A stretch of DNA of 42,057 nt. It comes from Sphaerochaetaceae bacterium (lineage in GTDB: Bacteria; Spirochaetota; Spirochaetia; Sphaerochaetales; Sphaerochaetaceae). Shown in pieces: positions 23,463 to 37,091 of the stretch. Position 1 is the stretch's first letter; each line of letters starts with the position of its first letter. The stretch covers positions 1 to 42,057 of the forward strand of contig JAILPZ010000058.1 in NCBI GenBank assembly GCA_024699225.1, written 5' to 3'. The notes beneath the pieces were generated by a model. That model ran no database searches, had not been told where the DNA came from, and saw nothing but the letters and a program-made list of their open reading frames with translations. Both the position numbers and the translations under genes were made by a program.

Positions 23463-24295
23463 CAGAGAACAATCCTTTCAATGGAAAGAGCCTTGCCGGT
23501 ACTTGTATCACTTGTAATACATACTCCGTGAATTACAGCCGGAGTCTCCGCAGCCTGAGCTTTAATTGGAAGCTGAGTCTTCTGCCTCTTTATAGCTAAA
23601 TCAACATCACAGCCTATTACACTCTCAGACGGACCGCACATACCTAAATCAGTAATAAAAGCAGTGTGATCCTTAAGAATTCTCTCGTCTGCAGTCTGTA
23701 CATGAATATGTGTTCCAACAACTGCAGTTACCTGAGAAGCTATGTGGAAAGCCAGAGCTTCTTTTTCCTCGCCGCTTTCTGCATGAATGTCTACAAAAAT
23801 CTGGCGCGCCTTTCCCTTAACCTGCCTGAGGCAGTCAGAAATACTCTTAAACGGATCTTCAGTGCTTGGCATGTTCACTCTTCCCTGAATGTTTATTACT
23901 GCAACACCTCCTGCAGCACTGACAGCAGAAGAACCCGGGACCATATAAGGTGAGTTAGAAGCAGACGGACTTCCTACTATGCAGTAACCGTGACCCGGAA
24001 CTGATGAAGAATAGTTTGCAGGTCTTAACAGACAGGCCTGTGAATCAAGAAAGGGGAAAATTTCATCCTGCTGCCAGATGTGGTTTCCTGAAGTAATAAC
24101 ATCCACACCGGCTTTGAACAGGAGATTCATATTATCAACAGAAATGCCAAATCCGCGACAGGCATTCTCACCGTTTGCTATAACAAAATCGGCGTGATAC
24201 TCCTTCCGTAGAGCCGGCAATTTCAAAAGAATGACCCCGCAGCCGGAATCAGAGTAAACATCTCCAAGCAACAGGGTCGTAAACTTATTTGGCAT
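23462..24295 (-). CDS. YmdB-family metallophosphoesterase
   Basis: A 277-residue phosphoesterase with the dinuclear metal ligands Asp12 (GDVYSDSG), Asn41/Glu43 (NGENA), Asn71-His72 (SGNHIW), His171 (DIHAES) and His196/His198 (GTHIHVQ). Bacillus YmdB hydrolyses 2',3'-cyclic nucleotides and affects biofilm and motility decisions, and there it also follows rny. Starts at GTG 24307 and ATG 24295 are possible. Both overlap the end of rny, and ATG 24295 matches the short N-terminus of the family. The rny-ymdB pairing is a conserved arrangement. Confidence 0.9.
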   Translation of the reverse strand: MPNKFTTLLLGDVYSDSGCGVILLKLPALRKEYHADFVIANGENACRGFGISVDNMNLLFKAGVDVITSGNHIWQQDEIFPFLDSQACLLRPANYSSSVPGHGYCIVGSPSASNSPYMVPGSSAVSAAGGVAVINIQGRVNMPSTEDPFKSISDCLRQVKGKARQIFVDIHAESGEEKEALAFHIASQVTAVVGTHIHVQTADERILKDHTAFITDLGMCGPSESVIGCDVDLAIKRQKTQLPIKAQAAETPAVIHGVCITSDTSTGKALSIERIVL

Positions 24296-25817
24296 ATTCA
24301 ACAGCACGCATCTCGCGGATGATTGTGACCTTGATGCGTCCGGGGTATCTGAGCTCAGCCTCTATGCGGCTGGCAATTCCCTTGGCTATCTCACGGGCCT
24401 TATCATCAGTGACAGTTTCTGCATTAACAAGAATTCTGAGTTCTCTTCCAGCCTGTACAGCAAATGCCTTATCAACACCTTCAAAGGAAACGGCTATCTC
24501 CTCAAGGCTTTCAAGACGCTTAATGTAGGTATCCAAAGTCTCTCTTCTTGCACCAGGACGGGCAGCACTGATAGCATCTGCAATCTGAACAATAATGCTT
24601 TCAACACAGATTGGATCCACATCTCCATGGTGGCTTTCAATTGCATTTACAACACGCGGGTCCTCACCGAGCTTTCTTGCAAGCTCAGCTCCAAGCTCAG
24701 CATGGTTAGCCTCACTTTCAGAAGCTATGCCCTTACCAATATCATGAAGCAGACCGCCTCTTCTGGCTATATCAACATTAGCTCCAACTTCAGCTGCAAT
24801 CATGCCTGCAATAACAGATACTTCACGGCTGTGGTTAAGAACATTCTGGCCATAACTTGTTCTGTAGAACAGTCTGCCAAGTGCTCTGATTGTCTCCTGA
24901 CTCATGTTTGTAAAGCCAAGATCAAAGACAACCTTCTCACCTTCTTCAGCTGCAATTCTGTTAACTTCTTTGGTGACCTTTGTGACAATCTCTTCAATTC
25001 TTGCCGGGTGGATTCTTCCATCCTGAACAAGACGTTCAAGAGCAACTCTTGCAATCTCCTTGCGAACCGGGTCGAAACATGAGATTACAACAGCCTCAGG
25101 AGTATCATCGATAATAATATCAACACCTGTGAGCGTCTCAAGAGCTCTGATGTTTCTGCCTTCACGACCAATGATACGGCCCTTCATTTCATCACTTGGG
25201 AGACTTACTGAACTGACTGTTATTTCTGAGCAAACATCTGTAGCAAGGCGCTGGATTGTAGAGACAACAATATCTCTGGCAACCTTGTCTGCCTTAGCCT
25301 GAGTTTCCTGCTCAATCTTGTTAATCAGGGCCATGCCGTCACGGCGGGCCTCATTCTCCATTCTTTCAAGGAGAATGTTCTTTGCTTCACCACTGGACAT
25401 GGAAGCAACTCTTTCAAGTTCCTTCTGCCAGTTCTCTTCCATCTGGGATACCGCTTTTTCGCGGCCATTGAGTTTTTCTTCTTTATCCAGTTGCAGAGCC
25501 TTGACAGAATCCAGTTCTTCCCTGGTCTTATCGAGGTTCTCTTCCTTCTGCTGCAGTCTACGCTCGTAGCGCTGAAGTTCGGACCGTCTTTCGCGGTCTT
25601 CCTTTTCCTGCTGAAGCTGTTCCTTCAGAAGTCTATCTCTACCCTCAAGCAGTATTTCCTTCTTTCTTGCCTCGGCTTCTTTAACAGCCTCCTGGCTAAG
25701 TCTGACGGCTTCCTGCTCTACTGAGGTAAGCTTAATTTTTCCATAAAGCCAGCGTCCAAGCCAGCCTAATCCTAAACAACACAGACAAAGAAGGATCAAT
25801 ACGATTACGGAAACCAT
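24285..25817 (-). CDS. rny: ribonuclease Y
   Basis: A 510-residue endoribonuclease that starts mRNA decay. Residues 4-24 are a membrane anchor, 35-170 a charged coiled coil, then a KH domain with GRIIGREGRNIR (213-224), then an HD domain with LLHDIGKG (356-363) and HHGD (396-399). All catalytic histidine/aspartate positions look intact. GGAGGG five bases before ATG 25817 and a near-consensus promoter support the start. It matters for this window because any cleaved nagB leader RNA could be its substrate, and because RicT and YmdB, both linked to RNase Y in Bacillus, are also encoded here. Confidence 0.96.
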   Translation of the reverse strand: MVSVIVLILLCLCCLGLGWLGRWLYGKIKLTSVEQEAVRLSQEAVKEAEARKKEILLEGRDRLLKEQLQQEKEDRERRSELQRYERRLQQKEENLDKTREELDSVKALQLDKEEKLNGREKAVSQMEENWQKELERVASMSSGEAKNILLERMENEARRDGMALINKIEQETQAKADKVARDIVVSTIQRLATDVCSEITVSSVSLPSDEMKGRIIGREGRNIRALETLTGVDIIIDDTPEAVVISCFDPVRKEIARVALERLVQDGRIHPARIEEIVTKVTKEVNRIAAEEGEKVVFDLGFTNMSQETIRALGRLFYRTSYGQNVLNHSREVSVIAGMIAAEVGANVDIARRGGLLHDIGKGIASESEANHAELGAELARKLGEDPRVVNAIESHHGDVDPICVESIIVQIADAISAARPGARRETLDTYIKRLESLEEIAVSFEGVDKAFAVQAGRELRILVNAETVTDDKAREIAKGIASRIEAELRYPGRIKVTIIREMRAVEYAK

Positions 25818-36010: not shown

Positions 36011-36040
36011 AAATACTCCGGACATTTATCCGGAGTAAAA
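36004..36040 (-). terminator. intrinsic terminator after nagB
   Basis: Nine-base arms TACTCCGGA and TCCGGAGTA (36014-36022 and 36029-36037) enclose a six-base loop. On the minus strand the stem is followed by TTTTTATTT, so it ends nagB transcription. On the plus strand only A residues follow, so it is weaker for the esterase operon. Confidence 0.8.
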
Positions 36041-36056: not shown

Positions 36057-36848
36057 TTAAAGCCTCTCGTTCTTCTCCATGTCAAGGAAGTACTTGTAAG
36101 TATCTACTGTAAGCTCTCCACAGGCTTCCTCATCACAGGCAATAATAGCACCATTGTGCATCTGAAGTGCTGAACATGTCCATTTCTGGCTAACTGAACC
36201 TTCAACTGTTGCGGCAAGGGCTCTGGCCTTGTTGTGTCCTGAGATAAGAACCAGAACTTCCTTAGAATCTGTTACAGTTCCTATTCCTACAGAGAGAGCC
36301 TTTGAAGGAACTTTGTCAGGGTCGTTTCCAAAGAAGCGGCTGTTAACAATACGTGTATCTGTTGTAAGGCTTCTTACCCCTGTTCTTGAGCTAAGGCTTG
36401 TAAACGGTTCGTTAAAAGCAAGGTGCCCGTCTACTCCTATACCACCCATAAAAAGATCTATTCCACCATAGGATGCTATCTTTTCCTCATATCTTCTGCA
36501 TTCACCTTCAGGATCATCAGTCATGCCGTTTAGAATATTGATGTTTTCCTTCTTCATATCAACAAGATGATCAAAGAAGTTATCATGCATAAAATACCAG
36601 TAACTCTGGTCGTGTGTCTTTGGAAGTCCCAGATACTCATCCATATTGAATGTAACAACATTTGAGAAAGACACCTTTTCAGCCTTGTTAAGCTTAATCA
36701 GCTCCCTGTATACACCTATAGGAGAAGAGCCTGTAGGCAGACCAAGAACAAACGGCCTGTCTTCTTTATGCGAATTAATCTTATCTGCAATATAATTTGC
36801 AGCCCATACGCTCATTTTTGCGTAATCTTCCTGAATAACTACCCTCAT
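36057..36848 (-). CDS. nagB: glucosamine-6-phosphate deaminase/isomerase
   Basis: A 263-residue enzyme that interconverts glucosamine 6-phosphate and fructose 6-phosphate plus ammonia. Motifs: LGLPTGSSPIGVYREL (35-50), NMDEYLG (68-74) with catalytic Asp70, and GIGVDGHLAFNEP (136-148) with Asp140, His142 and Glu147. All active-site residues match the E. coli enzyme. The start has GGAG seven bases upstream. The gene stands alone in direction and transcript, with a terminator after it and a glmS-type ribozyme in its leader. No nagA or glmS is in the window. NagB is reversible, so a synthetic role is possible. Confidence 0.96.
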   Translation of the reverse strand: MRVVIQEDYAKMSVWAANYIADKINSHKEDRPFVLGLPTGSSPIGVYRELIKLNKAEKVSFSNVVTFNMDEYLGLPKTHDQSYWYFMHDNFFDHLVDMKKENINILNGMTDDPEGECRRYEEKIASYGGIDLFMGGIGVDGHLAFNEPFTSLSSRTGVRSLTTDTRIVNSRFFGNDPDKVPSKALSVGIGTVTDSKEVLVLISGHNKARALAATVEGSVSQKWTCSALQMHNGAIIACDEEACGELTVDTYKYFLDMEKNERL

Positions 36849-36881
36849 ATTGAGTCTCCATTAAGAAAAATTACAACAACT

Positions 36882-37007
36882 AGAGAAGCTCTGTTACAGT
36901 GCTGATTCTGCTTTTTCTCTCCCCTATGCGATCTGTTGCAGACCGTGATGGCATCCGCCGAGTCTTTCGATAACCATCATCCTCGTCAATCTTCCGATCC
37001 AGGCGCT
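36882..37007 (-). ncRNA. glmS ribozyme: glmS-type self-cleaving ribozyme/riboswitch in the nagB leader
   Basis: Read on the minus strand, the leader contains GCGCCTGG (37006-36999), TTGACGAGGA (36989-36980) and TCGGCGGATGCC (36961-36950) in the order and spacing of the glmS ribozyme core. Pairings agree. P1: GATC/GATT with a GGAA loop. P2: TGATGG (36979-36974) with CCATCA (36951-36946), differing from the common GGAGG/CCTCC but still paired. P2a: CGA/TCG. Pseudoknot: CGCC (2-5) with GGCG. P3: CGGTCTG/CAGATCG with a CAA loop. P4: AGAGAA (36920-36915) with TTCTCT (36887-36882). The cleavage site is predicted between A at 37007 and G at 37006. The cofactor in known members is glucosamine 6-phosphate. 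The match is by eye from the consensus in memory. Confidence 0.93.
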
Positions 37008-37045
37008 AACTGTTTTTCCCTCCTAAAACAACTATCAAAACAGTT
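37008..37045 (-). promoter_or_regulatory. inverted repeat abutting the ribozyme cleavage site
   Basis: Perfect nine-base arms AACTGTTTT and AAAACAGTT (37037-37045 and 37008-37016) enclose about 20 bases that hold TAGGAGGG, a Shine-Dalgarno-like sequence with no start codon after it. The second arm ends one base before the cleavage site, so cleavage would release a short RNA ending in this hairpin. Confidence 0.5.
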
Positions 37046-37091
37046 TTACAATTAGATGGTACACAATTGAAATAAAAGAATAAAGTCTTAC

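Follow-up and report, generated by a model that had tools for sequence, protein, structure and literature searches.

A glmS-class ribozyme in the leader of nagB in a spirochete of the family Sphaerochaetaceae

The window, i.e., the whole stretch of 42,057 nucleotides that was analysed (contig JAILPZ010000058.1 of the assembly GCA_024699225.1, genome G000), comes from a spirochete, as the preliminary description had supposed, but not from a treponeme, its family being that of the Sphaerochaetaceae MAG RUI394. Misplacement of the contig in G000 was considered and rejected, as other G000 contigs are its nearest by tetranucleotide profile. The gene nagB starts at 36848 on the minus strand and is separated by a gap of 243 bases (36849-37091) from the end (37092) of the upstream ORF, which is CDP-glycerol glycerophosphotransferase-like (PF04464). 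The gene had been named from its sequence alone, and the TIGR00502 score of 379.7 bits, above the equivalog cut-off of 236.9 bits, bears the name out; the strong intrinsic terminator behind nagB makes it the last gene of its transcript. It adjoins a surface-glycan cluster with LicD, glycosyltransferases, a flippase and an O-antigen ligase. The long run of surface-glycan genes at 21738-42053, interrupted by RNase Y, a YmdB-like gene and nagB, holds an ATP-grasp TupA-like protein, glycosyltransferases, LicD, an inositol monophosphatase-like protein, O-antigen ligase and an SGNH esterase, together with a TagF-like transferase, an acyltransferase, a flippase, a sugar nucleotidyltransferase and a galactokinase-like fragment. 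The features of the nagB transcript are as follows.

36014..36037, minus: intrinsic terminator behind nagB, 10-bp stem and T run
36057..36848, minus: nagB, glucosamine-6-phosphate deaminase, 263 aa (TIGR00502; PDB relatives 7lqm, 3hn6, 1cd5)
36872..37018, minus: glmS-class ribozyme, full-length RF00234 match by cmscan
36881..36926, minus: P4 and P4.1, from pairing, with two compensatory P4 changes against the G006 ribozyme
36929..36945, minus: P3; CAAC in its loop (36938-36935) and GUUG (36880-36877) are able to form the P3.1 pseudoknot
36946..36979, minus: P2 (UGAUGG/CCAUCA), closed around P2a (UCGA/UCGG) and the conserved core, from the Rfam match and pairing
36988..36999, minus: miniature P1 of four pairs with a GGAA loop, from pairing inspection
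37006..37007, minus: predicted site of self-cleavage, between A(37007) and G(37006), ahead of GCGCC, from the Rfam alignment position

The RNA in the leader matches the Rfam glmS ribozyme family RF00234 over the full model (1-167 of 167) at 37018-36872 on the minus strand, with 63.6 bits and an E value of 1.7e-12 against a gathering score of 37 bits in the covariance scan, and the proposal of a glmS-type ribozyme in the 243-base leader is thus upheld by a score far over background. No other stretch of the window reaches the threshold of an Rfam family, and no second RF00234 copy was found in the rest of the assembly (1.44 Mb, 81% complete). About 25 bases separate the ribozyme from nagB. Upstream of the ORF starting at 36848, the minus strand around the predicted cleavage site reads ...CAGTTA and, after the cut, GCGCCTGGATCGGAAGATTGACGAGGATGATGGTTATCGAAAGACTCGGCGGATGCCATCACGG..., and the Rfam alignment puts the A/G of this site at the same 37007/37006 that had been predicted. 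The core elements A/GCGCC (cut at the slash), GACGAGGA and UCGG CGG.UG are those of the consensus; the blocks reported earlier (GCGCC, GACGAGGA and UCGA...UCGGCGGAUG) are all present, the P2 arms TGATGG/CCATCA among the rest, and the helices P1, P2, P2a, P3 and P4 all pair, as do P4.1 and the P3.1 pseudoknot, which were found in addition. We infer from consensus identity that the P2.1 and P2.2 core pseudoknots would form as well. Judged by sequence and structure, this gut-type spirochete, of the Sphaerochaetaceae kind, carries a true and conserved member of the glmS ribozyme class ahead of nagB; the RNA class is known, and the gene context, nagB rather than glmS, appears to be new.

The window ribozyme is a derived one, with a minimal P1 and a P4.1 loop of 8 bases (36900-36907, AAUCAGCA) that is not a GNRA tetraloop, while the A-rich (purine-rich) internal loop of P4/P4.1 is kept, matching the glmS ribozyme family. 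In the B. subtilis glmS ribozyme, the L4 GNRA tetraloop docks on P1 (PMC11602151), and with AAUCAGCA in its place the usual contact with P1 must be absent or replaced. The L4 tetraloop is a peripheral feature, here not taken as defining for the glmS ribozyme. The AAUCAGCA loop is identical in both nagB-linked ribozymes, that of the window and that of G006 described below, and may make an alternative tertiary contact; one may also speculate that the GNRA-type loop of P1 takes the docking role in reverse. Minimum-energy folds, to which pseudoknots are invisible, gave no signal for sequestration of the Shine-Dalgarno sequence by the ribozyme (z 0.10 and -0.80). The MAFFT alignment A1 was excluded from the pair counts, having the P2 3' arm of G439 off by one and the S. 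aureus 5' end misplaced.

Among the 139 genomes of the family, RF00234 was found in two, the window's own and G006, a member of another genus (contig JAILRW010000109.1, Sphaerochaetaceae bacterium isolate RUI394), where a ribozyme of 61.1 bits lies before nagB with 26 bases to the start codon; the remaining 137 genomes searched are without it. The nagB leaders of 29 other family members, with the two nearest (92% protein identity) among them, were read directly and hold no ribozyme. A phylum sample of 393 genomes yielded one further ribozyme, in G439, a spirochete of another family, in the ordinary place before glmS (L005, 1501-1648, 99.7 bits). IMG/VR, searched with the ribozyme pattern and with the protein, gave nothing, and the plasmid and phage collections gave short core matches only, the two of which examined further were glmS-type leaders. 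The abstract of the main survey of these RNAs, by McCown et al. in 2011, is said to place all but two of 463 ribozymes in glmS mRNAs; a literature search made without that survey found no nagB-linked glmS ribozyme described, so that an earlier mention is possible.

The comparison of the window with G006 addresses selection on the RNA. The two NagB proteins are 90% identical, while their genes agree at 85 of 177 third positions and at only 19 of 62 fourfold-degenerate sites (31%), i.e., the fourfold sites are saturated; this rules out recent transfer as the cause of the RNA identity. Against this background, the ribozyme core is identical at 66 of 68 positions (97%; Fisher p 6e-17 against the fourfold sites of nagB) and P3-P4 at 49 of 57, whereas the 11 bases ahead of the cleavage site agree at only 6. 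P4 carries two compensatory, two-sided changes, U-A to G-C at 36926/36881 and G-C to U-G at 36919/36888; in P3, one A-to-G change keeps its pair (U-A to U-G), and the innermost pair is lost in G006. The P3.1 pseudoknot has four pairs in the window, three of which form in the same register in G006. The saturated silent sites, the conserved core and the compensatory P4 pairs together show that the RNA is under selection beside nagB and that its function has preserved it ever since the divergence of the two nagB genes.

In the nagB tree, the window and G006 group with G086/G087 (100/99) inside a clade with the genus g21, while G006 itself belongs to the genus g2, in which the native nagBs show about 70% identity to that of the window. 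The ribozyme-nagB unit of G006 starts right behind an operon 89% identical in DNA to that of G004, which has no nagB there; this synteny, which marks the other genes of the contig as native to the genus, rules out misbinning of the G006 contig. From the tree placement and the insertion site, the ribozyme-nagB unit has probably moved between genera. The idea that G006 lacks GlmS and uses the ribozyme-nagB unit as a replacement was dropped, since the flanks of the sister's glmS sit exactly at two G006 contig ends, so that the G006 glmS probably lies in an assembly gap. In G003 (L036), nagB follows a gene that neighbours glmS in G004, which suggests a swap of both genes at one locus; in G130 and G131 (L015/L017), glmS is followed at once by nagB in the same orientation, two opposing enzymes in tandem.

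The preliminary description had NagB as the enzyme that normally consumes glucosamine 6-phosphate (GlcN6P). The reaction of NagB is reversible (GlcN6P to fructose 6-phosphate and ammonia, and back), and the direction in which it runs decides what the ribozyme switch does; E. coli mutants without glmS can run NagB backwards at high ammonium. The window's genome encodes a full GlmS (710 bits, contig C22, separate from the window), with no ribozyme at that glmS, and NagA, so that NagB there could be purely catabolic. On the other hand, 63 of the 109 family genomes at least 85% complete, the single-contig G077 included, have NagB but no GlmS, and NagB may therefore be the sole route from fructose 6-phosphate to GlcN6P in them. 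Two large genera of the family are mostly NagB-positive and GlmS-negative (e.g., G077, G024, G029, G063 and G008), which suggests GlcNAc dependence or a biosynthetic NagB. Neither enzyme was seen in the small genomes G017, G136 and G138. A family-wide exclusion of glmS and nagB was dropped, as their anticorrelation is weak (p 0.03 to 0.34, in statistics that ignore phylogeny). Where E. coli NagB has S151, R158 and K160, which we take to be the allosteric GlcNAc6P-site residues, the NagB clade of the window carries T, G and R, and most sister NagBs of the family S, R and K. Allostery is not universal among NagBs, and these changes leave NagB membership untouched. Loss of the allosteric residues is by itself uninformative on direction, as the NagB of Akkermansia muciniphila is also not activated by GlcNAc6P; that bacterium has no GlmS, and yet at physiological concentrations its NagB shows no amination (PMC5902328).

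The best explanation as a whole, to which we give a probability of about three in four, is a conserved glmS-class ribozyme before nagB, triggered by GlcN6P, with feedback as the favoured sign. Abundant GlcN6P would bind the pre-formed pocket of the ribozyme and cause the nagB mRNA to be cut at the predicted 37007/37006, so that the nagB part would begin with a 5'-hydroxyl; both the GlcN6P dependence and the cleavage we infer from the RNA class. If NagB is able to run towards GlcN6P from fructose 6-phosphate and ammonia, cleavage would lower the nagB mRNA as product feedback, the sensor tracking the supply of the metabolite and not the name of the gene. The sign of regulation is the least certain part of this explanation: repression of a GlcN6P-making NagB is preferred tentatively, at somewhat under even odds. 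It is favoured because many genomes of the family have NagB and no GlmS, because of the surface-glycan neighbours and the changed GlcNAc6P-site residues, and because G439, another spirochete, has the ordinary ribozyme-glmS pair; the GlmS and NagA of G000, the Akkermansia NagB without amination and the fate of the cleaved mRNA weigh against it.

That fate is the ground of the strongest alternative, which we consider a possible though less probable one, namely, an ON switch in which GlcN6P-triggered cleavage raises a catabolic NagB: the metabolite would induce its own degrader and the deaminase would rise with its substrate, the 5'-hydroxyl mRNA escaping 5'-monophosphate-dependent decay where RNase J is lacking. 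No RNase J match over the cut-off was found in G000, G006, G439 or eight relatives, which takes away the known path by which cleavage leads to repression, so that repression needs another decay route; some spirochetes have been noted to be without several known decay enzymes (PMC3071783). RNase Y, whose cleavage can depend on a 5' phosphate (PMC3071783), is encoded in the window itself (24285-25817; TIGR03319, 685 bits), and in E. coli ribozyme products with a 5'-OH end stay stable as long as RNase J1 is not supplied (PMC7967978), which together with the RNase J result makes activation a live option, one that the NagA and GlmS of G000 also fit. However, the window genome is just 81% complete, and G439, likewise without detected RNase J, has its ribozyme before glmS, where repression is expected, which hints that repression may still work in spirochetes. 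We also know of no activating glmS ribozyme.

A drift of the effector or of catalysis, e.g., to another amino-sugar phosphate or to binding without cleavage, is improbable: the usual tertiary contact is lost with the minimal P1 and the non-GNRA P4.1 loop (PMC11602151), as such a drift would have it, but the family is matched at all invariant core positions, in the context of the cleavage site and in the purine-rich P4 internal loop. Less credible still is a passive passenger, an RNA that folds but is left over from a vanished glmS leader and does nothing to nagB, which may be imagined from a ribozyme-glmS-nagB order that lost its glmS (the gene order of G130/G131 being the model) and from a score below those of the glmS-linked examples compared, but which is opposed by the core identity beside saturated silent sites, by the compensatory P4 changes and retention in two genera, by the glmS locus of G130/G131, which gave no ribozyme match, and by a distance to nagB too short for a glmS remnant.

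Among natural ribozymes that depend on a metabolite, that of glmS is the textbook case; it has been proposed as a drug target and is nearly always linked to glmS. The selected nagB-linked copy would mean that the sensor can move to the enzyme of an opposing or reversible reaction, and the system bears on two questions, whether lineages that lack GlmS form GlcN6P through NagB and whether, without RNase J, cleavage by the ribozyme can switch genes on; an ON switch, if true, would give the same RNA opposite signs in different bacteria. Among the known systems, the NagB of Akkermansia muciniphila is, as in many genomes of the family, the sole enzyme linking fructose 6-phosphate and GlcN6P; it differs in that its NagB lacks physiological amination and its cells need GlcNAc, and the accessible part of the source mentions no ribozyme (PMC5902328). 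The ribozyme-glmS pair of G439 shares with the window the RNA class and the class of bacteria, but stands before glmS as in Gram-positives, in a different family and with a longer P1. With the glmS ribozymes of RF00234, the window copy shares the full-length covariance match, the cleavage-site context, the double-pseudoknot core sequence, the P2-P4 architecture and the 5' UTR position, the location in glmS mRNAs being a property of the known members and outside the core definition of the RNA; it differs from them in its place before nagB, its spirochete host, its minimal P1, its non-GNRA P4.1 loop and its 63.6 bits, against 79-128 bits in the glmS-linked examples compared.
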